From Thermodesulfobacteriota bacterium (GTDB taxonomy: Bacteria; Desulfobacterota; Desulfobacteria; Desulfobacterales; JAUWMJ01): a stretch of 61,974 nt of DNA. The notes below the pieces were generated by a model. It saw only the letters and a program-made list of their open reading frames with translations, was not told the origin of the DNA and made no database searches. Shown one piece after another: positions 27,053 to 44,492 of this stretch (within the stretch, counting starts at the first letter, position 1; each line of letters begins with the position of its first letter). The DNA lies in the NCBI GenBank assembly GCA_034189135.1, contig JAXHVO010000090.1, forward strand, positions 1-61,974, read 5' to 3'. The translations under genes and the position numbers were made by a program.

Positions 27053-27862
27053 TTAAAAAACGATACGGTTTTGGCCACAAACCAATATCAGTTCAGATTT
27101 GCCAAAAGCACAGGCAAGTGTCATGTTAAGAGCCCGTCCCATTTCCACGGCAAGGGCGGTGGGTCTTGATTTACTGATCATCATCGGCAGATGCGCTCTG
27201 GCCGCTTTTTGCACCAGCTCATAGCTTATCCTTGAAGACAGCACCAGAACGCGGGCTTGAGACAACTTCCTGCTCATCAAGGCTTTCCCGATTGCCTTAT
27301 CAAGAGCATTATGCCGCCCCACATCCTCAGCAAAAGAGATCATTTCCAGTTGGTTGTCAAATATTAATGCAGCATGTGAGCCCCTGGTTCTCGGATAGTA
27401 AGTCTGTTTTTCGGAAAGCTGGTTAACGCAATCAAAAATTCGGTTAATTTCAACCTCAAAACCGTTTTCTGCCGGAGTTAATATCTGATAAAGGTCTTTG
27501 ATCAGCTCTTTACCGCAAATTCCACAACTGGTTTGGCTGACAAAACCCCTCCTGTCAAGAAGGTGTTGAATTTTTTCGCGCCTTTCAGGTTTGAGTCGAA
27601 TATCAATCACATTCGGATCCAGATCTTTACAATATCCGATGGTGATGAAATCATCGACGGAATCCGCAATCCCTTCCCCAAGGCTGAACCCGGCCGCATG
27701 AAACAACTCTTCCCCAGGTGTCCTCATTACCACTGAATAAGGCTTCTCGTCGATACGAATCAAAAGGGGCTCCTCTCCGATCAATTCAAGCGAACTGTTC
27801 CGGCAGACCCCTTTTTTACATCCAACTGCCTGATAAGTTTCAGTAATTTTCCCGGCGCCCAA
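27053..27862 (-). CDS. fdhD: FdhD, sulfurtransferase for formate dehydrogenase-type cofactors
   Basis: Carries sulfur from the cysteine desulfurase to the Mo/W-bis-pterin cofactor of formate dehydrogenases. The 269-residue protein has the redox CxxC in QTSCGICGKEL (near residue 120) and the EDVGRHNALDKAIGKAL segment near 185, both diagnostic. The start is TTG at 27862 after AGGAACC. It lies downstream of bamF in the same direction, separated by a 220-bp palindromic element. No formate dehydrogenase gene is in the window, so the adjacency to a tungsten enzyme cluster is notable but not proof of a joint role. Confidence 0.92.
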   Translation of the reverse strand: MGAGKITETYQAVGCKKGVCRNSSLELIGEEPLLIRIDEKPYSVVMRTPGEELFHAAGFSLGEGIADSVDDFITIGYCKDLDPNVIDIRLKPERREKIQHLLDRRGFVSQTSCGICGKELIKDLYQILTPAENGFEVEINRIFDCVNQLSEKQTYYPRTRGSHAALIFDNQLEMISFAEDVGRHNALDKAIGKALMSRKLSQARVLVLSSRISYELVQKAARAHLPMMISKSRPTALAVEMGRALNMTLACAFGKSELILVCGQNRIVF

Positions 27863-28174: not shown

Positions 28175-29011
28175 TTATTTCTTTTTACTTTTTCTGACTA
28201 TCGTTCTTTCTTCTTCAGGAATAGGGAGCGGAACAGGTTCACCGGAAGACTTTTGCACCGCACCAAAGCGGGGGGGGCATGCGTCAAGGCAGGTTCCGCA
28301 CTTTATACACTTGTCTTGGTCAATGACATGGATCAAGTTCTTTCCGCCTGTAATCGCCTCTACAGGACATCGCTTTGCACAAATCATACAGGCCTGGCAC
28401 TTATCCGGATCAATATAGTAGGAGGGAACTTCACTGAACAACTCGTCTATCTCTTCACTGGTGAAACAGCCGTCGTACTCGTCTTCGTTTTCAATACGTA
28501 AATCCAGCTTCTCCCTTTTTGCCATTTTAATGTAGGGGATCAGCTTTCTAACTTCATCAAGTTTAGCTTTTAATTCATCCTGGGGTAATCCTTCTTTTTT
28601 TCCCAGAGGCCCTATCTCCCTCACCTTGTTGACAAACGCATCAGTCACTTCGGTCAGAAGGATTCCATCACCGGAAGACATGAATTTGATGTTTAACCTT
28701 TCCGGATTCAGCCCGATGTGTTCCATTAATTTTCTACATAGAAGCACCATGTTTAGTGCGTGGTAATTTCCATGAGTAAGATAGTTGCACTCGTTAAGCC
28801 GGCAACCACCAATGAACACCCCATCCATTCCATTTGCAAAGGCTCTGAGTACAAATTCCAGGTCGACTCTACCGGAACACATGACGCGAATAAACCTGCT
28901 TTCGGTTGTATATTGCAGTCTGGAAACTCCAGCCATGTCAGCAGCGCCGTACGCTCACCAATGGCAGACAAAACCCAATATTTTTGGTTTAAATTTAAGC
29001 CCTGTACTCAT
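28175..29011 (-). CDS. bamF: BamF-like selenoprotein (MvhD domain plus ferredoxin domain), TGA read as Sec
   Basis: Electron-transfer subunit of the class II benzoyl-CoA reductase complex. From the ATG at 29011 (after AGAGGTGAT) the frame runs 18 codons to an in-frame TGA at 28957-28955 and continues to 28175, giving 278 residues with selenocysteine at position 19. The context is GFVCHW-Sec-AYGAADMAGV, where MvhD relatives have Cys or Sec in CxWC. The MvhD part (to ~120, with RVMCSGRVD and GGCRLNECNY) is followed by two [4Fe-4S] motifs, CQACMICAKRC and CIKCGTCLDAC, near 195-235. A predictor that stops at TGA would start at 28936 and lose the N terminus. A GUU-loop hairpin lies 22 bases past the TGA. 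Confidence 0.9.
28920..28932 (-). promoter_or_regulatory. Possible SECIS hairpin in bamF
   Basis: Within the bamF coding sequence on the minus strand, CTGGA-GTT-TCCAG can form a 5-bp stem with a three-base GUU loop, 22 bases after the TGA. Bacterial SECIS elements are short hairpins just downstream of UGA with G and U in the apical loop. The stem is short, so this is tentative. Confidence 0.4.
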
Positions 29012-29062
29012 TCGTTATCACCTCTTTTATCAGTCATCCCGGCTCTATTTCTTGTTATAACT

Positions 29063-32000
29063 CTACACATCTCCAATCGCCGCATCCATGGGTGGGTTTA
29101 TTTGTTCCTCCGGAAGTGCCGCATCAATTTGGCTCAACAGTTCCTCATCGGTAAAATGTTTTAGAAAAATTGCCCCTGTGGGGCACTTTGCGTTACAAAG
29201 GCCATCTCCTTTGCAGATTACCGGATTAACCACCGCTTTTTTGCCCTGTTTGGTCTTACGAAACTCTATGGCACCATAGGTACAGGCCGAAATGCATGAC
29301 CCACACCCCATGCACTTTTTCTCATCCACTTCGCAAACAGAACCGGAAACGGTGACTATATCATGTGACAGAAGGGTTAAGGCCCGGCCTGCAGCACCGT
29401 ACGCCTGGTTAATCGCTTCCGGTATATGCTTAGGATAGTGAGCGATTCCACAAAGATAAACGCCTTCGGTGGCAAACTCAACCGGTCTTAATTTGACATG
29501 GGCTTCTTTGAAAAAATGATCCTCTCCCAAAGAGACTTTGAATAATTGAGATATTTCTCTGTTTGTTTGAGGGGGGATCACAGCAGCGGCCAAAGCAAGA
29601 TAGTCGGCATCTATGGCAAGTTTTTTGCCTAAAATAAGATTGGCGGTGGTGACCCTTAAAACAGCCCGCCCTCCCTCTTCCACGGCTTCTATCTGAGGTT
29701 TATCATCCGGCTCATATCGAATGAACTTGACGTCTTGATTCGACGCTTCCCGGTAATAATCCTCCATTAATCCATAGGTTCTCATATCGCGATAGATAAT
29801 GGTGATATCCATCTGGGGGTTTAACTGTTTTAGTTTCAAGGCATTCTTAACCGCATGGCTGCAACATACCCTGCTACAGTAATTTCTGTCTTCATTTCTG
29901 CAGCCCACGCATTGAATCATCACCAGACTCTTGGCGTTAATCAGCTTTTCTTCTCCTTTGTTGATTTGCTCTCCCAGTTCTAACTGGGTCAATACCCTTT
30001 CATCTTTTCCATAAAGGTATTCGGTGGGTTTATACTCATCAGCACCAATGGCGATAACGGCGACCCCGTGTTTTATCTCAGACACCCCTCTTTCAGATTT
30101 CACCTGGGTGACAAAGTTCCCCACATAGCCGGTCGCCTCTGTAATACTGGCATCAGTATATACATGTACCAAGGGGTGCTGGTAAACCTTACCTATCACA
30201 TCATGTAAATAGGCCTGAACATCCATCCCGTCCAGCGTATTATATATTCTTCTTGCTATTCCACCCAGTTCGGCATTCTTTTCCACCAGGTGAACCTCAT
30301 GCCCCTGTTTGGCAATGGAAAGCGCACAAGTCATCCCGGCGATACCTCCACCAACCACTAACGCTGACTTGTTGACCGGCAGGTCAATTTCCCGCAATGG
30401 CTCCAGGTGGCGAACCCGTGCCACCGACATCCGGATGATATCCTTTGCCTTTTCGGTGGCGGCTTCCTTTTCTTTGGAATGGACCCAGGAACAGTGTTCT
30501 CTAATATTCGCCATGTCGTAATAATATTGATTCAGCCCCGCCTCCCGCAGAGTATCCCGGAATAACGGTTCAAGGGTCCGGGGAGAGCAGGCAGCCACCA
30601 CCACTCGATTAAGCCCTTTCTCCTCGATCATGTCTGTGATTTCTTTGGCAGAATTGGTCGCACAGGAAAACAGCTGCTCCTGAGAGTAAACCACATCGGG
30701 TAAGGTTAAGGCATACTCAACTGTGTTAGGAACATCGACCACTCTTCCGATATTGGCCCCGCAGTGACATACAAAGACCCCTATCCTTGGCTCCTCTTGT
30801 GAGACATCCCTTTCAGGTGGATATATCCTTTCTCTGTTCAGCTTTCCTCGGCGGTAGTCAAGGAACTCACCACATTGGGAGCCGGCTGCGCTGGCGGTAA
30901 AAACCGACTCGGGAATATCGGTGGGACCTTGGAAAGCACCACTTACAAATATCCCGGGCCTGGTGGTCTCCATGGGATTGGAAGAAATTGCTTTACAGAA
31001 TCCGTGTGAATTGAGCTCAATGCCGAACTTCTTGGCCAACTGGTTAAACTCATGGGGGGGGGTCAATCCAACGGAAAGTACCACCATATCGAATTCTTCC
31101 TCTTTTACCCCGTCCTCGGGTGTAGAGTACCGTATGGTGACATTGTTGGTTTCCGCTTTCTCCTTTCCAATGGAGACGTAACTTCTGATAAATCGAACAC
31201 CGGGAAGTTTCTCTGCCCGTTGGTAGAAAAGCTCAAAATCCTTCCCATAGGAGCGGATATCATTATGAAATACGGTGCATTCGGCCTCAGGGTAATGATC
31301 TTTGGTCAAAATCACCTGTTTCTGGGTATAGGTGCAACATACGGCTGAACAATAGCTGTGACCGCCTTCGATAATCTGTCTGGAACCGACACATTGAATC
31401 CAGGCTATCTTTTGGGGATGCTGCCTGTCGGAAGTACGCAACACCTCACCTTCGTATGGCCCGGTGGCGCACAATACCCGTTCATAATCCATACTGGTCA
31501 ACACATTCTGCATCTTTCCATAGCCATATTCATTTCTCACCTTAGGATCAAACGGTTCAAGTCCGGGAGACAAAACGATCGCCCCAACTTTGACTTCCAC
31601 TTTCTCCGGTGTTTGATTCAAATCTATGGCTTCATTCTGACAAACGGCTTCGCAGATATGGCATTTCTTCTCTTTAAGGTAAAGACAGCTTTCATCGATA
31701 TAAGTAATCAGCGGAATTGCTTGAGAAAAGTATATATGAACGGCTTTATTCTGCGATATATCCTGATTATATGGATCCGGGTATTGGACCGGGCAGTATT
31801 CTACACAGGTACCACAACCGGTGCATTTATCCTCTAAAATGTATCTGGGCTTTTTAATCAGGGTGACTGTAAAGTTCGCCAATTCCCCTTCTACACTGTC
31901 AACTTCAGTATAGGTCAGGACCTCTATGTTGGGATGCCGGCCGACCTCGACCAGTTTGGGCGAAAGTATTCACATGGAGCAGTCATTGGTGGGAAAGGTC

Positions 32001-32185
32001 TTGTCCAACTGGGCCATATGGCCACCAATGCTTGGGGCTTTGTCAACCAAATAAACCTTAAAACCGGCAGTGGCAAGATCAAGAGAGGCTTGAATGCCAC
32101 TGATCCCTCCTCCAACCACCATTACGTCTCCGAAATTACTGTCAGCGTAACTGTTACAAAGCTGTTCAATTTGTTCTTTTTCCAC
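29063..32185 (-). CDS. bamE: BamE-like HdrA-family flavoprotein, selenoprotein with in-frame TGA
   Basis: Large FAD/Fe-S electron-transfer subunit, probably the bifurcation-type module of the benzoyl-CoA reductase complex. The full 1040-residue frame is 32185-29063 with selenocysteine at residue 72 (TGA at 31972-31970) in PTNDCSM-Sec-ILSPKL, the position of a conserved Cys/Sec in HdrA. There is a first FAD motif [16 protein letters not shown] (residue ~22) and a ferredoxin-like [12 protein letters not shown] second HdrA-like half has [16 protein letters not shown] (near 610), and the C-terminal clusters are [11 protein letters not shown] and [11 protein letters not shown]. Simple ORF calls would report a 71-residue fragment and a 939-residue protein. 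It lies 15 bases after bamD. Confidence 0.93.
31937..31954 (-). promoter_or_regulatory. SECIS-like hairpin in bamE
   Basis: On the minus strand CTGGTC pairs with GGCCGG (six pairs including G-U) around the loop GAGGTC, starting 15 bases after the TGA. The loop contains AGGTC, close to the AGGUCU apical loop of the E. coli fdhF SECIS as I recall it. Position and loop both fit a bacterial selenocysteine insertion element. Confidence 0.6.
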
Positions 32186-32200
32186 TTCTCTATTTCCTTA

Positions 32201-33370
32201 TCAGGTTTCTTCGGTTCCCATAATCGATTCCTGGATCATTTCCGTGATGTCTTTAATTTCTATCTTTTCGGTCACATCCAGGGTCAATCGGCTATCCTCA
32301 AAATTGGCGATGCAGTACGGGCAGCAGGTCACCAGTACTTCAGCCCCGACATCAATCGCCTGTTCCACCCTCAGGTCGGAAAATCTTTCACCTCTCGGGG
32401 TTTCCATCCAAATCCTGCCCCCTCCCCCTCCGCAGCAAAGGCTGTCTTCCAGTGAATCAGGCATCTCAATCAGCTCTAAGCCTGGTATTCTGTTTAGGGT
32501 CTCGCGGGGTTCGTCATATATACCATTGTGTCGACCCAGGTAACACGGGTCATGATAAGTCACCGCCTTACCACACTCCTGATTAAGCTCAAGCCTTCCT
32601 TCACTCACCAGTTCTGATAAAAATTGGCTGATATGAACCACTTCAAAATTCACTTTAAATTCGGCATACTCGTTTTTAAAGGTATGGTAGCAATGAGGGG
32701 AAGAAACCAGGATTTTTGTTACCCCGTTTTCAACAAACGTTTTGATGTTTTCCCTGGCCAAGGTTTTGAACAATTCTTCATTACCCGTCTTGCGGATGCT
32801 TTCCCCACAGCAATTCTCCTTGGACCCCAGTATACCGAAATCTACCCCCGCCCTTTTAAGTATATTGGCTGTGGCCACAGCCACCTTTTTTATTCTTGGG
32901 TCATAGCTGGGGTAGCAGCCGGGGAAGTATAAAATTTCCATCTCTTCGGTAAACGTTTTTACCCCCAGTCCTTCTGTCCAATCGGCTCTCTTTTTTCGCT
33001 CTTCATTTAACGGGTTGCCTTCGCCGGTGAGGCTTGCACTCACAGCGCGAATGGGACGAACGGGATCGGGGAAAACCCCAAATTCCGTGGCAATTCTGCG
33101 TGCGGATACCCCAATTGCGATTTGATCCACGCCCCTGGGACACCGCTGGGGACATCTTCCACAACTCGTACAGCGCCATATCTCTTCATTTTCTATCTCT
33201 GTCAAACCGAACATCGCCTGTCGGACGATCTTGCGCATACTAAAGTCTCTCACCCGGTTCCACGGACAAACAGAATCGCACAATCCGCATTCATAGCAAA
33301 ATTTGAAGGCTTCTCCACCGGTCTCTTTGATAAGATCGATGACTTCTTCTAAAGGTTCTACAGTCTCCAC
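32201..33370 (-). CDS. bamD: BamD-like iron-sulfur protein (HdrD/CCG-domain)
   Basis: Fe-S electron-transfer subunit of the class II benzoyl-CoA reductase complex. The N-terminal part has two [4Fe-4S] motifs, CYECGLCDSVCP and CTSCGRCPQRCP. The rest has two CCG (cysteine-rich) domains like the catalytic subunit of heterodisulfide reductase: YFPGCYPSYD with CCGESI, then YHDPCYLGRH with LCCGGGGGRIW and a final TCCPYC. From the GTG at 33370 (after AAGGGG) the protein has 389 residues. A TTG at 33430 is also in frame but overlaps bamC by 35 bases without a ribosome-binding site. Order and spacing match bamBCDEF. Confidence 0.9.
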   Translation of the reverse strand: METVEPLEEVIDLIKETGGEAFKFCYECGLCDSVCPWNRVRDFSMRKIVRQAMFGLTEIENEEIWRCTSCGRCPQRCPRGVDQIAIGVSARRIATEFGVFPDPVRPIRAVSASLTGEGNPLNEERKKRADWTEGLGVKTFTEEMEILYFPGCYPSYDPRIKKVAVATANILKRAGVDFGILGSKENCCGESIRKTGNEELFKTLARENIKTFVENGVTKILVSSPHCYHTFKNEYAEFKVNFEVVHISQFLSELVSEGRLELNQECGKAVTYHDPCYLGRHNGIYDEPRETLNRIPGLELIEMPDSLEDSLCCGGGGGRIWMETPRGERFSDLRVEQAIDVGAEVLVTCCPYCIANFEDSRLTLDVTEKIEIKDITEMIQESIMGTEET

Positions 33371-33395
33371 AGTCTTTTTTATCCCCTTCTTTGGC

Positions 33396-33941
33396 CTAAA
33401 TGGTTGAGCCCTTTTTTGACATTCGGGCAACGGTATCCATTATGGTCTGTATTCCATATTTGTCTGCCAATGATTCCAAGCCAATCTCCAGTTCCTCTTG
33501 CTCCTCCTCTTCTTCCACTTCCTCTTCCCTTTCCTCGTAAATCAGGGCATCATTTAAACACCATTTCACACACAGGGGCTCATCTTCATCCTCACACATA
33601 TCGCATTTTAGCGGAAGCCCCGAATCGGGCTCCTTGAACTCGTCTCTGGACGGACATGACGCCCTGCAAAAGGCACATTCTTCGTATTCCTTTCCGTCGA
33701 TCACATATTTATCTCTGCCCGCACATTCGGCCGGCGTATACTCTCCCGCGTATACCGGAACATATATGTCCTGCAGCGGATATCGAATCACCCGAATACG
33801 AGACCTCGCCGGATTATTGCTGCTATATTTGGGTGTAGCGTGATAGGCGGAGCAGATGACCTCACATGCCCGACAGCCATTGCACTTATCCACATCAACT
33901 TTTATTGTTTTAATCAGTTTCTTTGTTTTATCACCCTTCAA
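33396..33941 (-). CDS. bamC: BamC-like ferredoxin subunit
   Basis: The small Fe-S partner that binds BamB and passes electrons to its active-site subunit. The 181-residue protein has CNGCRACEVICSAYH (first cluster, residues ~20-34), a middle Cys set around CAFCRASCPS and CDMCEDEDEPLCVKWC (clusters 2-3), then an unusually acidic Glu-rich stretch (REEEVEEEEEQEELE, about 140-155). The gene ends 17 bases upstream of the bamD start and begins 17 bases after bamB. It resembles the two AOR-linked ferredoxins at 36633 and 41287 in general layout only. Confidence 0.88.
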   Translation of the reverse strand: MKGDKTKKLIKTIKVDVDKCNGCRACEVICSAYHATPKYSSNNPARSRIRVIRYPLQDIYVPVYAGEYTPAECAGRDKYVIDGKEYEECAFCRASCPSRDEFKEPDSGLPLKCDMCEDEDEPLCVKWCLNDALIYEEREEEVEEEEEQEELEIGLESLADKYGIQTIMDTVARMSKKGSTI

Positions 33942-33958: not shown

Positions 33959-35965
33959 CTATTTTTTCTTTTTTGCTGCTGAAGCCTTTTTAGCAGAAAC
34001 ATTTTCATCATCCGTCAAGATCCCTCGCTGAAGGAAGTCTTCGCTCACGTAATTCAAACCCAGTTCATTTAAAGACTCCGTGGTGGGAATACCTTCCTCA
34101 TTCCACCCCTTGAATTGATAGTAGGTATCCAGAAGTTCCTTTTCAAGTTCGGGAAATCTTTTCTTCCAATGGTCCTCAGGGGGTTTCTCATCTTTTCTGC
34201 TCATGCCCCTTCTGATATTATTGGCTCTGACCAATGTCCGATACCTTTTGGCGGCCTGGGACAGTTTGTCTTCATCCATATCGATCCCGGCCCCTGATGA
34301 GATAAATTTCGGGTAATTGTGTATATGATAGGGAGGTTTAAGCGGAAATGAGGACAAACCGGCGCACATCCCGAGGGCATCATCAATGTAATGCATTTTC
34401 TCTTGCCAGTCGACAATATCACAGGACATTTGAACCGTTGGATAATAAGGATTTGAGTTTTCGCCGCGTGGTTCCCAGTCCAGAAAGTACTGCTTGAACT
34501 TTTCATCAGGAACCTGAAACCAGTCCTTGACAAACGCTTCTCGATGTTCTCTCTTAGGATAAGGCGCCTGGGGAAACTGTCCTTCAATCTGGGTAATGTT
34601 TATCTTTTCGCCGGTACAGTACATTAAAAAATAAACCGGATTCAGCATGGACAGTTTGAGAGGAAGCTGTTCATGCTTCTTAATATTATTGTGGGCATAT
34701 TCTTCCGCGCCGTTGCCGATCTCTTTTGCCGCCCAATAGGTACCATTGGCCAACACATCTCCTATTCCTTCCCGCCGGACAATTTTATCGAGTAAATAGT
34801 AGAATTTTCCCTCATTATCATCTGGCATTTTAGGAAAATCTTTATCCGTCAAAATGCCGTTTTCTAAAAGTTCAAGGGCAAAGGCCATCACTTGCGGGGC
34901 AGAGAACCCGTCCACCCCGTACTCCGTAGCGCTTTGAGCGATACCCAAACCAAATTCCAGATTTGACATGGCCGCCATGGTATAGGTCAGCTTGGAGAAA
35001 CATTTCATCATGTAGGTTGGCCGTCCCGGGGGCGAAATGGTTGCCCCGCAGGTCATGGGACAGTTATAGCAACTGATGAGTCGGGTCCGCATACTGTCCA
35101 TGGTTTCCATCCATTCTTTTTCGACCTCCTCGTTCCAAAAATCTCTCCTGCGCACGCGGGAGTTTCCCCACATGAAATTTTCGGTGTGCCACTTCTCATC
35201 ATGGACTTTCATCTCCTGTGGCGATCCAAGGCCGGCTAAAATAGGCATGACCCCAGGGATCGGATTATCATTACGGAATTTAATATATTCCAGCACTTCG
35301 TTGCAAAGCGCCATGTATTCCTCCGGTTGGGCGACATGAATATCTTTTGTTCCACGAACAACCACCGCCTTTACCCCTTTGTCTCCCATAACAGCGCCTA
35401 TTCCCAACCGGCTGGCACTGGAGCGTCCCTGTTCTATGGAAGCAAAATAAACCCTGTTTTCACCTGCCAGTCCGATGGCAGCTACCTGGGCTTTCGGCTC
35501 ATTCAATTCCTGTCGAATGAGTTCTGCGGTTTCAACAGCGCCTTTTCCTTTCAAATGAGCGGCATCACGTATTTCCACTTTGTCATTGTTTATCCACAAA
35601 TAAACCAGATCGGGGGATTTGCCGCGAAGGATGACTTTGTCATAACCGGCATACTTCAGTTCGGGTGCCCAAAACCCTCCCATCATGGAAAACGCCATTA
35701 ATCTGGTCTGAGGAGAAATGGTAGAAACAATGGTACGGTTACATCCTGTGGCTGGTGTGCCACATAAAAGGCCGGCGGCAAATATGAGTAAATTTTCAGG
35801 AGAAAAGGGTTCCACTTCAGGAGGAACCCTGTCCCATAATATTTTGGCGTTCGTACCCAGACCCCCCAGATAAAGCTCGGTGTCTTTTGGGTCCGTGGCG
35901 ACTCTCTCAATGTTTCCCCGGCTCAGATCCACTTCCAAGTTAAACCCTGTCTCTGCATACCTCAT
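33959..35965 (-). CDS. bamB: Class II benzoyl-CoA reductase catalytic subunit (tungsten AOR family)
   Basis: Reduces benzoyl-CoA to cyclohexa-1,5-diene-1-carbonyl-CoA at a W-bis-metallopterin, the ATP-independent dearomatising step of strict anaerobes. From the ATG at 35965 (after AAGGGG) the protein has 668 residues and begins MRYAETGF, strongly like Geobacter BamB as I recall it. Cluster ligands CYNCPMTC lie at residues 299-306. Glu251, His255, Glu257, His260 (QEMKVHDEKWH) and Cys322 (MKCFSK) fall at exactly the numbers reported for the BamB active site and tungsten ligand. That points to a true aromatic-CoA reductase rather than a generic aldehyde oxidoreductase. A start 36 bases upstream is less likely. 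Confidence 0.95.
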   Translation of the reverse strand: MRYAETGFNLEVDLSRGNIERVATDPKDTELYLGGLGTNAKILWDRVPPEVEPFSPENLLIFAAGLLCGTPATGCNRTIVSTISPQTRLMAFSMMGGFWAPELKYAGYDKVILRGKSPDLVYLWINNDKVEIRDAAHLKGKGAVETAELIRQELNEPKAQVAAIGLAGENRVYFASIEQGRSSASRLGIGAVMGDKGVKAVVVRGTKDIHVAQPEEYMALCNEVLEYIKFRNDNPIPGVMPILAGLGSPQEMKVHDEKWHTENFMWGNSRVRRRDFWNEEVEKEWMETMDSMRTRLISCYNCPMTCGATISPPGRPTYMMKCFSKLTYTMAAMSNLEFGLGIAQSATEYGVDGFSAPQVMAFALELLENGILTDKDFPKMPDDNEGKFYYLLDKIVRREGIGDVLANGTYWAAKEIGNGAEEYAHNNIKKHEQLPLKLSMLNPVYFLMYCTGEKINITQIEGQFPQAPYPKREHREAFVKDWFQVPDEKFKQYFLDWEPRGENSNPYYPTVQMSCDIVDWQEKMHYIDDALGMCAGLSSFPLKPPYHIHNYPKFISSGAGIDMDEDKLSQAAKRYRTLVRANNIRRGMSRKDEKPPEDHWKKRFPELEKELLDTYYQFKGWNEEGIPTTESLNELGLNYVSEDFLQRGILTDDENVSAKKASAAKKKK

Positions 35966-36171
35966 TTTTTTCCCCTTATGAATTATCTGAATCCGTAGCA
36001 ACTATGATGGGCCCTGGTTTTGTGCGGAATGACTTCTTTCTGTAAAAGAGAATCATCTCTAAATGCCCATCAAATAACTTGCCACAATTTTATCTAGACG
36101 AACATGCTAACTAAATGCAGTTTTTACAAATGCCTACCAATCTTTCCTGTTTTTTTTATTCTGATATTTAA

Positions 36172-36632: not shown

Positions 36633-37139
36633 TTATGCGGCAGCTTGGAGGTCAGACGCCTTTTTTTGTGCAGCTGAAAGCTTTTTTGCAGCCTCTTTCT
36701 GTTTCAATACGGCAACATCGGAAGCATCGACGTACTCTATGGCGTTCACTTCGCAAAAACGAACGCACTGGGGGTCGCCGTCGCACAGATCGCACTTGGC
36801 TACTTTTCTATCAATATAGTTGAAGGTCATGGCTCCGAAAGGACAGACAGACACACAGGTGCGACATCCGATACAAATGTCATAATCAACTTCCACCCGG
36901 GCCAATTCGTCATTACGGAAAATTGCTTTTACCGGGCATGCATTCATACAAGGCGCGTCCTGACACTGCTGACATGACATGGGGATATACAGGCCCTCCT
37001 GTTCCCATTTCATCACCCTAATACGACTTCGAATGGGATTGGATATGCCGTCATGCTTTACCGCACAAACAAGTTCGCATAGCCTGCAACCGGTGCACTT
37101 TTCATAATTTATCATCAGAACTTTATTATTGGGTTCCAT
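36633..37139 (-). CDS. Four-cluster ferredoxin, AOR electron carrier
   Basis: Polyferredoxin of 168 residues with four [4Fe-4S] motifs: CTGCRLCELVC (about 15-25), CQQCQDAPCMNAC (about 56-68), CIGCRTCVSVC (near 88-98) and CDLCDGDPQCVRFC (near 115-128). This DMSO-reductase-subunit-B-like layout is shared by AorA, the electron carrier of aldehyde oxidoreductase in aromatic degraders. An Ala/Lys-rich C-terminal tail follows. The gene lies 54 bases after the AOR gene and before a strong terminator. The protein at 41287-41796 is its paralogue on the other arm of the locus. Confidence 0.9.
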   Translation of the reverse strand: MEPNNKVLMINYEKCTGCRLCELVCAVKHDGISNPIRSRIRVMKWEQEGLYIPMSCQQCQDAPCMNACPVKAIFRNDELARVEVDYDICIGCRTCVSVCPFGAMTFNYIDRKVAKCDLCDGDPQCVRFCEVNAIEYVDASDVAVLKQKEAAKKLSAAQKKASDLQAAA

Positions 37140-37193: not shown

Positions 37194-39134
37194 TCACAAA
37201 AGATGAGACGGCTCTTTGTTAATACCCAGTCTTTTTAGTGTCTTTGGTTTTGGAACGCCGTTTTTATCAAAACCCTTGTGTTCATATAGTTCATCAACCA
37301 TTTTAATAAACTTGTCCTTGTCAATTTTTTCTCCGATTACATCCGGAGCCCCACGTCTGCATGGTTCATCAAAATAGCGATGATTTAGCATATCTCCCTT
37401 AGCCAGATCATTTCTAGTCAAACCTTCTCTAATATTGAACAACCTTTCAAGATTATTGCATCTTTCCGCTATTTCCCAAATTTCTGTAGGAGTCAGTTCC
37501 AGACCGGTATTGTAATAAATCACTTTAGACCAGTCCTCAAAATTTGGAAGCGTTGCCCCTAAAAAGGTTGTATGATATTTGCATATACCGAGACAATCTA
37601 CAGCCATGTAACAGTTTTCCTGCCAGAAAACCTGCCATGGTTTGCCCTCGTAAGACGTATGCTCCGAACTCAGGGGGCCATCATAAGGAACCGGATTGCT
37701 ATAAATTTTTCTTAACACTTTCTCCGGTAGATGATAAAGATCAATGGCAGGACGACTTCTCAAATGATCAGAACCTCTGGAGGCAGTGGCAACATTAAGT
37801 GCCAGAGCAGGAGTGGCCCTTTCATCAGAGTGGAGGTTGTTCATACCTTTAACCTGGATCAGATAGTCAAACGAATTCTTTCCGATTTTTTCAGCAGCAG
37901 GAATTCCGCCGTCCGCCAGTGTATCACCCAGCCATCCCTTTCTGAAACATATTCGGTGAACCATTTCAAGAAGCGCTTCGTCATTTCCAAATTTCAAATC
38001 CAGACCGTCGGTTTCTTTGGTGGTAATTATTCCCAGTTCATAGAGTTCCATGGCCCATGAAATAATGCTTCCAACTTCAAGGTTGTCCATGCCATACTGA
38101 TCCACCAAATGATTCCCGGTTAAAACGGTTTCTGCACTCTTGCAATCCGGTTCTCCGCCAAAAGCGCCCTGTGAGGTGTATTCCGGCCCTTCATCATATT
38201 TCCCTGCATAGGGGCCTGAAGGGATTTTGTACTGGGCACGGCAATGTACCTGACAGCCGAAGCAACCGGTCATATGATACGGTCCCATGGTTTCCTCACA
38301 AATCTCATCAATGCGCTCAGGCTCGATATCATCCGCATTTAAGCATTGGTTATACTGAAAATTTCGCGTTCTTATTCCGCCCCATGAATTGGTTGCGCCC
38401 CAAATAAAGGGTGTCCCAAGGGTTCCCTGGGTCTGGTTGACTTTGGCGCTTGTAATCTGATCAATAAAGCGCTTGTTATATTCGAAGGCTTCGACCGGAT
38501 GTGCGATCTTAATATCCATGGTCCCTCTGACGGCAACAGCCTTGAGGTTTTTTGAGCCCATTACGCAGCCCATGCCTGTTCTTCCAGCCGAATTTTTTAT
38601 TCCGGTCATTACATTGGCAAATCTTACCAGGTTTTCACCCGCAGGACCGATGACGCAGCTTTTTACCTCCTGATCGCCGAGTTCATCTCTTATGGCCCAT
38701 TGCGTTTCAGTGGTGGTTTTTCCCCACAGGTTGGCGGCATCAAGTATTTTTATTTCACCATTGTGAATAAAAAGGTACACCGGTTTCTTAGCCTTTCCCT
38801 TTATGACCAAGTGATGAAATCCCGCCCATGCCAGCTCGGGGGCAAAAAAACCACCCATGTTGGCACTGCCGAGGAGTCCGGTCAGTGGAGATTTGGCCAT
38901 AATATGTGTTCTTGCCGTTGCAGAAGCACATGTGGCAGTTAAGATGCCTCCGCTTATCATGAGTGTGTTGTCAGGTCCGAGAGGATCGCAACCCTTTTTG
39001 GTATGATTCAAAAGCAGATATGCGTCCAGGCCTCTGCCGCCTAAAAATTTCTTTCGTATATCGAGCGGGATAGGCTTTGTTTCAATCTCTCCGGTGGAGA
39101 GATTGATATATGCTATCTTTCTGTTTAATGCCAT
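37194..39134 (-). CDS. Aldehyde ferredoxin oxidoreductase-family tungsten enzyme
   Basis: Tungsten-pterin oxidoreductase of 646 residues from the ATG at 39134 (after GGAGGG). The pterin-binding N-terminal domain has FLGGRGLDAYLL, the middle domain has GTPFIWGATNSWGG, and the Fe-S ligands are CFGCQVHC at residues 291-298 with a fourth Cys in AVDCLGICKY. The DEGPEYTSQGAFG segment after the cluster is that of ordinary AORs. It lacks the Glu-x3-His-x-Glu active-site block of BamB, so it is probably an aldehyde or carboxylate enzyme rather than a second benzoyl-CoA reductase. It is co-transcribed with a zinc-ribbon protein and a ferredoxin. Confidence 0.92.
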   Translation of the reverse strand: MALNRKIAYINLSTGEIETKPIPLDIRKKFLGGRGLDAYLLLNHTKKGCDPLGPDNTLMISGGILTATCASATARTHIMAKSPLTGLLGSANMGGFFAPELAWAGFHHLVIKGKAKKPVYLFIHNGEIKILDAANLWGKTTTETQWAIRDELGDQEVKSCVIGPAGENLVRFANVMTGIKNSAGRTGMGCVMGSKNLKAVAVRGTMDIKIAHPVEAFEYNKRFIDQITSAKVNQTQGTLGTPFIWGATNSWGGIRTRNFQYNQCLNADDIEPERIDEICEETMGPYHMTGCFGCQVHCRAQYKIPSGPYAGKYDEGPEYTSQGAFGGEPDCKSAETVLTGNHLVDQYGMDNLEVGSIISWAMELYELGIITTKETDGLDLKFGNDEALLEMVHRICFRKGWLGDTLADGGIPAAEKIGKNSFDYLIQVKGMNNLHSDERATPALALNVATASRGSDHLRSRPAIDLYHLPEKVLRKIYSNPVPYDGPLSSEHTSYEGKPWQVFWQENCYMAVDCLGICKYHTTFLGATLPNFEDWSKVIYYNTGLELTPTEIWEIAERCNNLERLFNIREGLTRNDLAKGDMLNHRYFDEPCRRGAPDVIGEKIDKDKFIKMVDELYEHKGFDKNGVPKPKTLKRLGINKEPSHLL

Positions 39135-39135
39135 A

Positions 39136-39396
39136 TTACTTTCCCTCCTTTTTCGCAAATGCCTCTTCGGCGATTTTACGGTTTACGTCCCAGACAGGCC
39201 CGCGTATTCTTGGCAGGTTTGGATTCACCCAGAACAATCGGTATTCCATCCCGCATATGGGGCACTTGACATGTTCTGATCCCGGATCAGGGACAAGCCT
39301 TTCCATGCAACTCGGGTTATGGCATCTCACCTTTCCAAAAGACCGTGTTTTACGCAAGGTTTCAGCGGCCGACTTTTTATCTCTGTCAATGGCCAT
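39136..39396 (-). CDS. Small zinc-ribbon protein, first gene of the AOR operon
   Basis: An 86-residue protein, MAIDRDKKSAAETL onward, with a two-part Cys motif CHNPSCMERL and CPICGMEYR (residues ~25-50). It is most likely a zinc ribbon. I start at the ATG at 39396, which follows AAAGGAG; the frame is open 15 codons further but that part covers the promoter and operator. Only one base separates its stop from the AOR start, so the two are made together. It could be a structural partner or assembly factor for the AOR. I do not recognise a named family. Confidence 0.75.
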   Translation of the reverse strand: MAIDRDKKSAAETLRKTRSFGKVRCHNPSCMERLVPDPGSEHVKCPICGMEYRLFWVNPNLPRIRGPVWDVNRKIAEEAFAKKEGK

Positions 39397-39657: not shown

Positions 39658-41274
39658 ATGGCATTAAATCGCAAAATTGCCTATATCGACCTGAATCGAA
39701 AAAAAATTGACATAACCCCCATCCCTCTGCAATGGAGGCGACGATTTTTAGGGGGTAGAGGTATCGGCGCTTACCTGTTGCTTAAGCATGCGTCTCCCAA
39801 ATGTGATGCCCTTGGCTCTGATAATGTAATCGTTATCAGTACCGGTTTACTGGGGGGCACATTGGCCACCCTTTCAGGCTGCACCTTTGTAATGGCCAAA
39901 TCTCCGCTTAGCAATCTTTTATGCAACGTTCAACTGAAAGGATTGTTTGCCTCTGAAATACGCTGGGCGGGTTTTGATCACCTGGTTATCACGGGTTGTG
40001 CAAGAAGGCCGGTATATCTTTATATAAATAATGGTACGGTAGAAATCAGAGATGCCAAAAAGGTTTGGGGAAAAAATGTGTCTAAAGCACATGAGCAAAT
40101 TCGGCAGGAACTAAAAAATGAAGACATCCGAATGATAGGCATCGGCCCTTCAGGCGAAAACCTGGTAAGGTTTGCCACCCTGACAACCGATGAGAACGCT
40201 ATTTCGGGCCGTACAGGTATAGGAGCGGTATTTGGTTCAAAAAACATTAAAACCGTTGTCTGCCGGGGAACCATGGATTTGGAAATAAAGCGGCCCGATG
40301 ATGTTCTGAAATTCAAAACAAAAAACGCTGGCCAGGCAGACGACATACAGAAAAAAAACGTAACCCAAACAGATCAATTGGAGCAGAAAATAGCTATAAG
40401 AGATATTACGCCATCCAAGCTTACTGATTGCGGCTTCAATTCGTTTGCAGAAAGTAAGTTTCTGACCAGAGAGCTCGGAATGGATCCTCTGGCGGTAAGT
40501 GGAATGCTCAACTGGGCGTTTACTTTATTTGAGAAAGGTAATCTCAAGGCAAATAAAGCAAACAGCTTAAAATTTAACCCGGAAAACCCTGATTCTGTTG
40601 GGGAAATGATTAAACATATCGCCTATCGCAAGGGGGTGGGGAATATCCTGGCAAAAGGATCATTTCGAGCTGCGGCAATAATCGGATATTCGTCCCTAAA
40701 TTATTTTGCTCCGGTGAAATGGTTGATCAAACTATATTCAGAAGATCCGCTACCTGCAAACTTTGCAAGCTTGATGCCAACCGGCAAAGATACCGACATA
40801 GTTGAACCGGATGGCCTTGAGCCGCTGGAAGGAAATGCCGGTTCCATCACTCTGGATGAAATAAATGAAATGATATTAAACTGTTTGGGAATATTTGTTG
40901 AAAAAGGCCTGGTTTCCTTGTTCGATGGTGACCCGCTCAAACGACTGATCGAACAGATCCGTTTCAATACCGGTTTGAACTTTGATGCGAATGAACTGAA
41001 AAAGATTGCCTGCCGCTGTTATGCGCTAGAACGGTTATTCAATATTGGAGAAGAGGTCACCTGGCGAAACGATTTTCATCCGGATTGCAGTTTTGATGTG
41101 CCATCAGGATTAGAAATGACCGGCCCCATGTGGGACAGTATCGATCTGAAAGAGTTTAAACGCAAGGTTAGCAAATATTACCGGCAGCGAAGATGGAGTA
41201 AAAAAGATCTTTTAAAGGCAGGGGTATTTAAAAAACTTGAAATTGATGACCTATGGCCATCGTTAAGAAGATAA
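39658..41274 (+). CDS. AOR-family paralogue lacking the Fe-S cluster motif (probable pseudoenzyme)
   Basis: A 538-residue protein whose first ~215 residues align closely with the AOR encoded at 37194-39134 (MALNRKIAYI start, FLGGRGIGAYLLL, RTGIGAVFGSKN). After about residue 225 the region that carries the CxxCxxxC cluster ligands, some 110 residues, is missing and replaced by a short Gln/Asp-rich linker. The region before the fourth ligand is also shortened, although a Cys in MILNCLGIF remains. The frame is intact and the C-terminal domain (YALERLFNIGEEVT) is kept. Without the cluster normal AOR catalysis is unlikely; a structural or regulatory role fits better. It heads an operon with ferredoxins. 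Confidence 0.85.
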   Translation: MALNRKIAYIDLNRKKIDITPIPLQWRRRFLGGRGIGAYLLLKHASPKCDALGSDNVIVISTGLLGGTLATLSGCTFVMAKSPLSNLLCNVQLKGLFASEIRWAGFDHLVITGCARRPVYLYINNGTVEIRDAKKVWGKNVSKAHEQIRQELKNEDIRMIGIGPSGENLVRFATLTTDENAISGRTGIGAVFGSKNIKTVVCRGTMDLEIKRPDDVLKFKTKNAGQADDIQKKNVTQTDQLEQKIAIRDITPSKLTDCGFNSFAESKFLTRELGMDPLAVSGMLNWAFTLFEKGNLKANKANSLKFNPENPDSVGEMIKHIAYRKGVGNILAKGSFRAAAIIGYSSLNYFAPVKWLIKLYSEDPLPANFASLMPTGKDTDIVEPDGLEPLEGNAGSITLDEINEMILNCLGIFVEKGLVSLFDGDPLKRLIEQIRFNTGLNFDANELKKIACRCYALERLFNIGEEVTWRNDFHPDCSFDVPSGLEMTGPMWDSIDLKEFKRKVSKYYRQRRWSKKDLLKAGVFKKLEIDDLWPSLRR

Positions 41275-41286
41275 GGAGCCCACTCC

Positions 41287-41796
41287 ATGACATCCAGGGT
41301 GCTTGTTGCAGATCTCAAAAAATGTACAGGGTGCAAACAGTGTGAACTTGCCTGTTCATTAAAACAGACCGGGGTAATTAATCCGGTCAAGTCCTGTATT
41401 CACATTATCGATTGGAATCATGAGGGCATTTTTTTGCCTGTATTCTGCCAGCAATGTGAAGATGCGCCTTGTATGGCTGTTTGTCCCAAAGATGCCATCT
41501 ATCGTGATATAAAACTGGAACGGATGGTGATTAATTACGATCTTTGCGTGGCATGCAGGATGTGCGTTTTTACCTGTCCATTTGGCGCACTGGGGTTTGA
41601 TCAGGAAAAAGCCAAGGTTTTAAAATGTGATCTTTGCGATGGAGACCCGCAATGTGTCAAGTTTTGCGATACCGATGCACTGTCTTACCTGGATTCATCT
41701 GTGTTTCAATACCAGACCACAAGCAAAACAGCACTTATGTTGAAGAGTGCGACCGACAGAAAATTCGGTCACACTTCACCGCCGGTTGGCCGATAA
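41287..41796 (+). CDS. Four-cluster ferredoxin, paralogue of the AOR carrier
   Basis: A 169-residue polyferredoxin with CTGCKQCELAC, CQQCEDAPCMAVC, CVACRMCVFTC and CDLCDGDPQCVKFC, the same four-cluster layout and length as the protein at 36633-37139. All sixteen ligand positions look intact, in contrast to the degraded AOR in front of it. It starts 12 bases after that gene. It may carry electrons to or from the leftward AOR or form a dead-end partner for the pseudoenzyme. Confidence 0.9.
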   Translation: MTSRVLVADLKKCTGCKQCELACSLKQTGVINPVKSCIHIIDWNHEGIFLPVFCQQCEDAPCMAVCPKDAIYRDIKLERMVINYDLCVACRMCVFTCPFGALGFDQEKAKVLKCDLCDGDPQCVKFCDTDALSYLDSSVFQYQTTSKTALMLKSATDRKFGHTSPPVGR

Positions 41797-41850: not shown

Positions 41851-42264
41851 ATGCTTTATTTCAAGGTAAACGAAAGATGCAACGGATGTTTGGCCTGTGT
41901 TCAAAACTGTCCGGCCAACGCCCTGGCTTTCAAAGACGAGGGGAACAGGCGGACCATCTTGCACAATATGGCACGATGCGCCCGTTGCGGCACCTGTTGG
42001 AGAGTATGCCCTCAAGACGCGATTGAGTTTCAGCATATGCTAAAGAATCAATGGGATGAGGTCGTCACGTTGGATCTAGTTCGCTGTAAGATATGCGACG
42101 AACTTCTTTATACTGTCGACCTTGAAAAGACTCTTTCTAAAAAAAACAATAAAAAAGCCGAGCCTCTGTGTTCCAGACACAAAGAAGCTCATTCACTAAA
42201 AACAGCGGCATGTTTTTTCCCCGGTAAAAAAAGACAGGAAGAGGTGAAAAATGATCGTCGGTGA
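41851..42264 (+). CDS. Two-cluster ferredoxin with C-terminal Cys-containing tail
   Basis: A 137-residue protein with two [4Fe-4S] motifs in CNGCLACVQNCPANAL (residues 10-25) and CARCGTCWRVCPQDAIEF (near 46-63). After a linker it has a CKICDELLYTV segment and a further Cys and His-rich region, which may hold zinc or contact partners. The ATG follows AGGAG. The last 14 bases overlap the following gene. The layout resembles the small Fe-S subunits that feed MetV or Hdr modules. Confidence 0.85.
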   Translation: MLYFKVNERCNGCLACVQNCPANALAFKDEGNRRTILHNMARCARCGTCWRVCPQDAIEFQHMLKNQWDEVVTLDLVRCKICDELLYTVDLEKTLSKKNNKKAEPLCSRHKEAHSLKTAACFFPGKKRQEEVKNDRR

Positions 42265-42931
42265 TTTAAAACCCTTAGATGAAATTGTTTCCTCCATTGC
42301 CGATTACCGTAAAGTGATGGTGCTGGGTTGCGGCAGTTGTGTGACTGTCTGCCTTTCCGGAGGTGACAGAGAAGTTAAAGCTCTTACCAGAGAACTCTCG
42401 CGAACCAGACATTATCAGGGAGATCCTCCCTGCTTTGAAGAAGGCACCATCCTAAGGCAGTGTGAACAAGACTTGGTTAAGGCGTATCAGGAAATCTCAC
42501 CGGATGTTGAAGCTGTATTGTCGCTGGCCTGTGGTGCAGGTGTCCAGATCGTGGCGGATGTATTTGAGCCTTTACCGATTATTCCTGCATTGAATACAAC
42601 ATTTATCGGCGCTTCAACAACCCCCGGCATTTGGCAGGAAATGTGTCAAGGATGCGGCGACTGCATGCTTTCCTTTACCGGCGGGATATGTCCGGTGGCA
42701 CGATGTTCAAAGGGTCTTTTTAATGGGCCATGCGGCGGTTCTCAGGGGGGGCGTTGCGAAGTTAATCCTGAAATTCCATGCGTCTGGGCTTTGATTTACT
42801 ATCGATTAAAAAAACAAAATAAACTTCACTTATTGCATGAAGTTAGACAGCCGAAAGACTGGAGACCCGGAGGGGCCTCGGGCCCCAGAGAGCGGAAACG
42901 AACGGGAATTGCCGGAAGCCCTGGAATGTGA
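42251..42931 (+). CDS. MetV-like protein (methylenetetrahydrofolate reductase C-terminal domain family)
   Basis: A 226-residue cysteine-rich protein of the MetV / MTHFR_C family. In acetogens MetV joins MetF and links methylene-tetrahydrofolate reduction to ferredoxin or Hdr modules. Motifs are LGCGSCVTVCLSGG near residue 25, LACGAGVQIVADVFE near 95, and CQGCGDCMLSF with RCSKGLFNGPCGGS and RCEV near 135-175. The last ~30 residues after YYRLKKQNKLH are not family-like. No metF is nearby, so it probably acts as an electron-transfer adaptor in another context. It overlaps the preceding ferredoxin gene. Confidence 0.85.
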   Translation: MIVGDLKPLDEIVSSIADYRKVMVLGCGSCVTVCLSGGDREVKALTRELSRTRHYQGDPPCFEEGTILRQCEQDLVKAYQEISPDVEAVLSLACGAGVQIVADVFEPLPIIPALNTTFIGASTTPGIWQEMCQGCGDCMLSFTGGICPVARCSKGLFNGPCGGSQGGRCEVNPEIPCVWALIYYRLKKQNKLHLLHEVRQPKDWRPGGASGPRERKRTGIAGSPGM

Positions 42932-43043: not shown

Positions 43044-44492
43044 ATGAAAAAAATGGACGTAAATGAAATTGAATTACTCAGTGTGGGTATAGATATAGGA
43101 AGCTCGACCAGTCATCTGGTATTCTCCAAGCTGTTGCTGGAAAGAGATGAGCAATCTCCGACCCGTCGGTTTATCATTGTAAATAGAAACATAATTTATG
43201 AGGGAAAAATCATAGACACACCCCTATTGAACGACCATACCATTGATATAGCGAAATTAACCGATTTTTTTAAACAAGAGTATAAGCACGCGGGAATAGA
43301 TCCCGCTGAAGTTCAAACCGGTGCGGTTATAATCACCGGCGAAACCGCCAAAAAACAAAATGCAGAGGAAATCGTAGAGACATTATCCAATGATGCGGGA
43401 AAATTTGTTGCGGCAACCGCAGGACCGAATTTCGAAAGCGTGATTGCCGCCATGGGTTCCGGCGCAAGAGATCGATCCCAAAAATACAACAAAACAATAC
43501 TCTGCTGTGATATCGGTGGGGGAACCTCCAACATTGCCCTATCGGTAAATGGCAAAATCGCATCTACCGGTTGTGTCTCTGTCGGAGGGAGACTGATCGC
43601 CTTGGATTCTGATGATAAAATTTCGCGCATCACCGATCCTGCGGAAACACTTATGGAAAACCTTGGCCTGGATTATCAAATTGGAGATCGAATCCTGAAA
43701 AAGGATATTGATCAAATCGCTGAAACCTTTGCCCAAGTACTAATCGAGGTCATTACCGGACAGCCGATTTCTCCTTTAGCTGAAAAGTTGATCATCACAA
43801 ATAATCTCGATTTTACCAACCGCATCGATGAATATATGTTTTCAGGGGGTGTCGCGGAACTCATATATGGCGGCAATGGTCATCACCACGACATGGGGCA
43901 AATTTTAGCCGAAAAAATTAATTTGCTGACGCCCAAATTAACCTCTCCGGTGATAGAACCGCTGAATAAGATTAGAGCCACTGTCATTGGCGCAGGCGCG
44001 CATTCGCTGTCAATTTCCGGCTCATCAGGATTTATGGATGATAAACTCAATTTTCCCATAATAAATATCCCTGTCATCAAGGTGAATATAGAGCATGCAA
44101 AATTAAGTGCTTCACATGTCATATCAGAGATAACGGCATCATTTCAGCGTGTTGATTTAGCAGAAGGAAAAGAAACGGTCGCATTGTACTTTAAAGATTC
44201 CATAAGGAATTCTTATCCTGAAGTGGAATTATTTGCCAAATCTATTGAAGCGGCTCTTCCCAATTCAATTGATAATGGAATACCCATTATCTTAATCTTT
44301 GAGAATGATATTGCGTGCAGCGTAGGGAACGTTATGCGCCGGGAAACCGGATTGAAAACCAATTTGCTGACCCTGGATGAATTGGACCTTAAAGAAGGAG
44401 ATTGGATCGATATCGGTAAACCTCTGGTTGGCAATCAGGTATTTCCCGTTACGGTTAAATCTCTCGTTTTTAATATGGTGGATAATGGCTGA
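43044..44492 (+). CDS. EutA-like ASKHA ATPase
   Basis: A 482-residue protein of the EutA family, which in enteric bacteria reactivates adenosylcobalamin-dependent ethanolamine ammonia-lyase. Seen here are the ATPase phosphate-1 motif GIDIGSSTSHLVFSK (residues 15-29), ITGETAKKQNAEEI near 97, the second phosphate motif CCDIGGGTSNIAL near 155 and the EYMFSGGVAELIYG segment near 270. No ethanolamine lyase (EutBC) or microcompartment gene is nearby. Its place in an AOR/ferredoxin operon suggests either a different B12 enzyme partner elsewhere or a new role as activator. Confidence 0.85.
   Translation: MKKMDVNEIELLSVGIDIGSSTSHLVFSKLLLERDEQSPTRRFIIVNRNIIYEGKIIDTPLLNDHTIDIAKLTDFFKQEYKHAGIDPAEVQTGAVIITGETAKKQNAEEIVETLSNDAGKFVAATAGPNFESVIAAMGSGARDRSQKYNKTILCCDIGGGTSNIALSVNGKIASTGCVSVGGRLIALDSDDKISRITDPAETLMENLGLDYQIGDRILKKDIDQIAETFAQVLIEVITGQPISPLAEKLIITNNLDFTNRIDEYMFSGGVAELIYGGNGHHHDMGQILAEKINLLTPKLTSPVIEPLNKIRATVIGAGAHSLSISGSSGFMDDKLNFPIINIPVIKVNIEHAKLSASHVISEITASFQRVDLAEGKETVALYFKDSIRNSYPEVELFAKSIEAALPNSIDNGIPIILIFENDIACSVGNVMRRETGLKTNLLTLDELDLKEGDWIDIGKPLVGNQVFPVTVKSLVFNMVDNG

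Follow-up and report, generated by a model that had tools for sequence, protein, structure and literature searches.

In-frame UGA codons in bamE and bamF, two neighbouring benzoyl-CoA reductase genes of a Thermodesulfobacteriota genome

Are two neighbouring genes that are each crossed by one in-frame TGA codon damaged, cut short, or read through as selenoprotein genes? The question is raised by bamE and bamF, predicted genes for electron-transfer subunits of a benzoyl-CoA reductase, an enzyme of anaerobic benzene-ring breakdown, on contig JAXHVO010000090.1 of a Thermodesulfobacteriota bacterium (assembly GCA_034189135.1). The stretch of 61,974 nucleotides that was analysed is called the window here, and all coordinates are window positions (Table 1). 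A sequence-only reading of the window had proposed that the two are neighbouring selenoprotein genes, and this proposal is supported by the conservation of the TGA codons, by the alternation of selenocysteine (Sec) and cysteine (Cys) among relatives, by the Sec machinery of the genome and by candidate hairpins downstream of both codons. With a probability of roughly 0.93, we regard bamE and bamF as genuine selenoprotein genes, in each of which the single in-frame UGA is read as Sec.

With TGA read as U, the minus-strand translations of bamE and bamF are both intact and contain exactly one TGA apiece, and the translations and re-read letters agree with the codon positions and with the end points of both genes as first proposed. 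The starts and their ribosome-binding sites also held on re-reading: bamE begins with a GTG at 32185, 15 bases past the bamD stop and with AAGGA upstream, and bamF with an ATG at 29011 that is preceded by AGAGGTGAT. The anticipated shortening by standard gene calls is borne out in a mechanical list of translation table 11 open reading frames (ORFs), which are the gene calls meant throughout and in which bamE is reduced to 939 aa (29063-31882) instead of 1040 and bamF to 253 aa (28175-28936) instead of 278. When ORFs are read plainly in this way, both subunits come out short and BamE loses its N-terminal FAD-binding region, and genomes like this one are easily misread as being without an intact electron-transfer part of benzoyl-CoA reductase. 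That the UGAs are true stops, with the 253- and 939-aa ORFs functional in their own right, perhaps through internal initiation, strikes us as extremely improbable: the shorter ORFs do have possible starts, but the N-termini that would be lost include, in BamE, the FAD-binding start and DCSM motif known from HdrA and, in BamF, the CxxC/U motif known from MvhD, all aligned with solved relatives, and it is the full frames that are preceded by starts with ribosome-binding sites.

Conservation of the TGA codons and the selenocysteine machinery

The comparison within the order covered 194 genomes, 182 of them with a BamE/HdrA match at E <= 1e-200, and the 30 genomes that matched best, among them that of the window, contributed one examined locus apiece. 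Among these best 30 of 182, BamE residue 72 is TGA in 30/30 loci, and BamF residue 19 is TGA in 27/27 loci with a BamF match, such a match being lacking in the other three (L026, L046 and L047). A TGA on the same residue throughout both sets is not chance. The genome is a draft of 140 contigs, which leaves room to suspect decaying pseudogenes or sequencing errors in place of TGC, TGT or TGG, the latter being a refutation that the sequence-only reading had itself named. With the TGA kept across genomes, sequencing error is untenable even without raw reads; both frames are otherwise intact and synonymous constraint is found downstream of the TGAs, as described below, and we give neither errors nor pseudogenes any real credence.

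A scan of named genomes extended the comparison to at least 80 loci, whose titles are mostly deltaproteobacterial and firmicute, the rest being bins from other bacteria and, in a few cases, from archaea (bins may be misassigned). Among the 80 matches listed, BamE residue 72 is encoded by TGA in 39, TGC in 28 and TGT in 13, and BamF residue 19 by TGA in 49, TGC in 13 and TGT in 11, with no match in 7; these proportions of the listed matches are not to be taken as frequencies, the Cys form being part of one of the two peptide patterns. The claim that relatives carry Cys or Sec at both places is thus sustained, no codon other than TGA or Cys being present at either site among these matches. In three Geobacter-titled loci (L152, L154 and L162), a Cys codon in BamE goes together with a TGA in BamF.

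Extra in-frame stops in some relatives were considered as other recoding and set aside: TAA or TAG in seven re-read loci (L027, L038, L041, L047, L097, L099 and L100; G139, G100 and G131 were left out) never fell inside the BamE frame away from the C-terminus, and the surplus TGAs of L029 are C-terminal too. As a separate observation, MvhD-like matches beside HdrA paralogues in L058 and L097 have a TGA at BamF position 70, not 19, which is possibly a second Sec site of the MvhD-like family.

The search for Sec machinery that had been proposed as a check was made in the window's own genome (G000; 4.63 Mb, 95.5% complete), and every component is present, which removes its absence as an argument against Sec. 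The genome holds selA on contig C37 (604 bits), selD on C62 (379 bits, itself with one in-frame TGA), a canonical selB on C140 (375 bits) and a tRNA-Sec gene, selC, on C30 (75 bits, anticodon TCA, discriminator G73). In the established bacterial mechanism, as outlined in the accessible part of PMC13188914, SelA uses the selenophosphate that SelD provides to form Sec-tRNA, and hairpin-bound SelB delivers it. For bamE and bamF, SelA and SelD would make Sec on tRNA-Sec(UCA), and the canonical SelB would bind a hairpin 15 nt (bamE) or 22 nt (bamF) downstream and deliver Sec at the UGA. The residue would then sit in the CxxU motifs of HdrA-like and MvhD-like electron-transfer subunits, where its selenol would replace the second Cys of CxxC, perhaps as a cluster ligand or as a redox thiol. 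The available text of PMC12054007 cites a hypothesis of two flavin-based bifurcation events in the class II reductase. For the two subunits of the window, we infer Sec insertion, SelB binding of both hairpins and a role in electron transfer or bifurcation.

Table 1. Coordinates of bamE, bamF, their UGA codons and candidate hairpins, and of the neighbouring genes in the window.
Feature	Position	Strand	Details
bamE, HdrA-like selenoprotein subunit	29063-32185	-	1040 aa, GTG start
In-frame TGA of bamE	31970-31972	-	Sec residue 72 of BamE (PTNDCSM-U-ILSPK)
Candidate SECIS hairpin of bamE	31937-31954	-	7 bp, loop AGGU, CUGGUCG-AGGU-CGGCCGG, begins after 15 nt from TGA
bamF, MvhD/FlpD-like selenoprotein subunit with C-terminal ferredoxin domain	28175-29011	-	278 aa, ATG start
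In-frame TGA of bamF	28955-28957	-	Sec residue 19 of BamF (GFVCHW-U-AYGAADM)
Candidate SECIS hairpin of bamF	28920-28932	-	5 bp, loop GUU, CUGGA-GUU-UCCAG, begins after 22 nt from TGA
bamB, predicted tungsten benzoyl-CoA reductase subunit, AFOR-type	33959-36001	-	phmmer match to 4z3w_A
bamC, ferredoxin-like	33396-33941	-	named by position
bamD, CCG-domain, 4Fe-4S protein (HdrBC-like)	32201-33430	-	named by domains and position
fdhD-like gene, next on strand after bamF	27053-27862	-	Pfam FdhD-NarQ 1.8e-57

Hairpins after the UGA codons and in paralogues

Candidate hairpins follow both UGAs of the window. A bacterial selenocysteine insertion sequence (SECIS) is a hairpin that closely follows the UGA and has a G at loop position one or two, and both candidates agree with this rule through their loops AGGU and GUU. 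Both TGAs are followed by such a SECIS-like hairpin, a feature that the sequence-only reading had suggested looking for. Reduced synonymous variation is the strongest sign that these putative hairpins function: over the 30 loci, BamE has its minimum among 955 twelve-codon windows in the one that begins precisely with the Sec codon, 72 (observed/expected ratio 0.30 against a mean of 0.79), and the 14 windows of BamF with the least variation, out of 131, begin at codons 17-30 (lowest 0.25, mean 0.77).

Pairing was counted over the order and named-genome loci pooled, five loci, all with TGA, being in both collections. All seven bamE pairs are kept in 69/69 TGA rows versus 4/41 Cys rows (64/64 TGA with duplicates counted once), and all five bamF pairs in 70/76 TGA rows versus 0/24 Cys rows (65/71 TGA with duplicates counted once); the remaining six bamF TGA rows keep 4/5 pairs. 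In the protein after the Sec site, two forms make up most Sec rows and IESPKFIEC is among the commonest Cys forms, and BamE residue 81 is V in 68/69 Sec rows and C in 38/41 Cys rows. This suggests that the stretch of BamE at the hairpin has been shaped by a short RNA hairpin, which most Cys forms lack.

The same signal recurs elsewhere in the genome. A search allowing up to 2 mismatches returned four copies of the 18-nt bamE hairpin, all exact and none at 1-2 mismatches, and its reversed sequence, used as a control, does not occur in the genome. Each of the four copies lies 15 nt after the in-frame TGA of an HdrA-family gene, in a DCSM or DCAM context, so that three HdrA paralogues of this genome carry the bamE hairpin letter for letter. 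For the bamF TGA plus hairpin, at up to 1 mismatch, the genome has one further copy, in an MvhD-like ORF on C57. When 25 HdrA-type loci from the order were added, chosen partly for their TGA, 15/25 had a TGA, and 12 of these 15 the identical 18 bases. No literature report of the letter-identity between the BamE hairpin and those of HdrA paralogues was met, in searches not aimed at exactly that point and with most subscription papers beyond reach.

In a tree of 110 rows, the Sec BamE genes form one group that needs one change (SH-aLRT 99). Once the 25 HdrA paralogues are included, the Sec group takes in two Cys rows, at branch supports of 82 and 93 (threshold 95), and the whole family needs 8 changes, of which at least 6 are forced. 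A single origin of Sec in BamE was dropped on these grounds, and our only claim, as far as the tree indicates, is a clustering of the Sec BamE genes, with gain and loss indistinguishable. In a comparison of 69 Sec with 30 Cys BamE rows (L176, L177 and L180 were excluded from the Cys set), 25 positions separate the two kinds, and residues 72, 74, 78 and 81 among them cluster at the UGA and hairpin. The UGA-plus-hairpin patch was possibly transferred from HdrA paralogues; RNA constraint alone could give the same pattern.

Several observations weigh against reading bamE and bamF as selenoprotein genes. The four Cys bamE rows mentioned above pair at 7/7, 7/24 Cys bamF rows reach 4/5, and 3/15 TGA-bearing HdrA paralogues are without the bamE hairpin. 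Covariation is thin: bamE has one compensatory change, from G-C to C-G in L041, a value that 14/500 shuffles reach, and bamF has no compensatory change and a pair count that is uninformative (500/500 shuffles), so that the case for the hairpins rests on their invariance. Their stability is ordinary against shuffles (z 0.46 for bamE and 0.09 for bamF), and no Rfam family passed the threshold in the bamE-bamF locus or in any of the four loci searched. Finally, a tRNA(UCA) with U73 that stands beside a second SelB in this genome could place Cys at UGA.

A second pair for UGA, of predicted cysteine type

The locus of this tRNA (C62:115833-117877; L053:9835-11881) holds a UCA tRNA with U73 and A1:U72 directly upstream of the second SelB, called SelB* here, which shares 29% identity with the canonical SelB in an alignment that spans almost all of it, C-terminus included. 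The tRNA (53 bits) was first suspected to be a second tRNA-Sec, and the accessible part of PMC5330540 shows that a bacterium can on occasion have two such genes. The same text gives G73 as essential for tRNA-Sec, and for this reason the C62 tRNA, with U73 instead of G73 and with A1:U72, was rejected as a tRNA-Sec and filed under the known selC* type. As far as the available text of PMC7609411 goes, selC* genes encode tRNA-Sec-like RNAs of cysteine type that are charged by CysRS*, and a second selB is found in Desulfobacterales and Syntrophobacterales. Judged by sequence, the C62 tRNA and second SelB match this known selC* tRNA-Cys/selB* pair. The selC*/selB*/cysS* system described there is like that of G000 in having its U73, A1:U72 UCA tRNA directly upstream of the second selB; in G000 the locus is separate from the bam cluster, and cysS* was not found directly after selB*, a gene of the HGD-D (2-hydroxyglutaryl-CoA dehydratase-like) type being there instead.

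With relatives of SelB* defined at >=35% identity (the rest of the listed matches are at <=34%), SelB* occurs in 20/194 genomes of the order, of which 20/20 have selA and 19/20 a second SelB match. Such a tRNA stands beside selB* at 18/20 loci, with U73 in 18/18, A1:U72 in 13/18 and G1:C72 in 5, and none was found beside selB* in L066, which is cut by the contig start, or in L071. One genome, G005, was considered as a SelB*-only test of cysteine decoding and dropped, short SelB-end matches on C128 and C44 making a broken assembly likely.

Might the UGAs of bamE and bamF then be read mainly as cysteine, by the U73-bearing selC* tRNA and SelB*, rather than as Sec? The presence of the pair in this genome favours such a view, as do the CysRS* charging and the second selB of Desulfobacterales reported in the part of PMC7609411 cited above, and Cys is the natural substitute at both UGA sites. 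However, SelB* was found in 20 of the 194 genomes, all with selA and nearly all with another SelB, and of the 30 genomes whose BamE loci share the TGA and hairpin only 5 are among them (G000, G010, G126, G152 and G188). Since the other 25 of 30 lie outside the SelB* set, Sec decoding is the simpler reading, and we consider mainly cysteine decoding very unlikely. A double decoding is conceivable, given selC*/selB* beside a complete Sec machinery, the near-full-length alignment of SelB* and Cys as the sole substitute among the matches listed: Sec would be placed via the canonical SelB, and Cys via selC*/SelB* as a fallback under selenium shortage that would keep benzoyl-CoA reductase running. 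We offer this as a speculative addition to Sec decoding that is, on balance, rather unlikely. Should the cell use the Sec system as well as the Cys-type pair, one could test directly what becomes of a selenoprotein gene without selenium. No literature report linking selC*/selB* to bam genes was met, in searches not aimed at exactly that link and with most subscription papers beyond reach.

The surroundings of selB* hold further genes. In G000, the HGD-D gene and a BadF/BcrA-type activase follow selB* (L053:11900-13951), and inspection of 8 more SelB* stretches showed an HGD-D relative in 5, accompanied in 4 of them by an activase relative. The HGD-D identity is 76-89% in L102, L103, L105 and L108, and L104 has a truncated piece at 79% besides a copy at 32%; SelB* in the HGD-D-bearing stretches is 48-58% identical. 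In G152, selB* and the HGD-D gene are separated by a cysS*-like gene for a 436-aa CysRS (L105:6758-8068), and the second CysRS of G000 (C27, L101:1399-3684), which could conceivably charge the selC* tRNA, is part of a 761-aa ORF with an N-terminus that by eye is cysteine synthase-like. About 8 kb from selC*/selB* on C62, two in-frame TGA codons cross an ORF for a molybdopterin oxidoreductase (L053:54-2318), possibly a Sec formate dehydrogenase.

The bam gene run and its known relatives

The bam identity first proposed for the genes is backed by BamB, which matches the crystallised benzoyl-CoA reductase 4z3w_A at 1283 bits (phmmer; query 13-663 on chain 1-651), with the next-best entry at 215 bits. 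Judged by domain types and gene order, bamC-D-E-F adjoin bamB, and from the BamB match the run from 36001 down to 28175, bamE and bamF included, is read as bamB-C-D-E-F. The same match makes the cluster the predicted bamBCDEF portion of a benzoyl-CoA reductase of class II (tungsten, ATP-independent). BamE scores 961 bits against the HdrA model NF040770, under that model's curated cut-off of 1100, and up to 658 bits against solved HdrA chains, and the HdrA FAD and 4Fe-4S domains are present. BamF has the FlpD domain PF02662 (148 bits, cut-off 22) with its CxxC/CxxU motif as well as a ferredoxin domain, and aligns with solved MvhD chains.

Two further AFOR-family genes stand beside the bam cluster (37194-39158, minus strand, and 39658-41274, plus strand), each with a ferredoxin-like gene after it (36633-37139 and 41287-41796, the latter by eye), and for the one at 37194-39158 aldehyde:ferredoxin oxidoreductases outscore BamB. 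Nearby on the plus strand are methylenetetrahydrofolate reductase C-terminal-like and EutA-like genes (42251-42931 and 43044-44492). No similar DNA was found among plasmid sequences.

The window run shares its bamB-C-D-E-F order and protein types with the class II BamBCDEFGHI of Geobacter metallireducens, as described in the accessible parts of PMC1924859 and PMC12016498, and differs from it in having an fdhD-like gene next after bamF. In the available text of PMC5109826, BamE (dmul_C24500/10), HdrA and MvhD of Desulfococcus multivorans are named as UGA genes upstream of SECIS elements. The BamE of that organism, likened here by description, is like window BamE a bam subunit with UGA-encoded Sec; the organism is another one, and a Sec BamF, as predicted for the window, is not among the genes named in that text. 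HdrA (NF040770) and MvhD/VhuD (PF02662) are tabulated as CxxU selenoprotein families in the accessible part of PMC13188914. UGA-encoded BamE and the HdrA/MvhD Sec families are thus already described, and the window pair is essentially a known kind of gene: its proteins have the same domains and CxxU motifs as these families, from which they differ in that the window genes adjoin BamB and that BamE, of HdrA type, is enlarged to 1040 aa.

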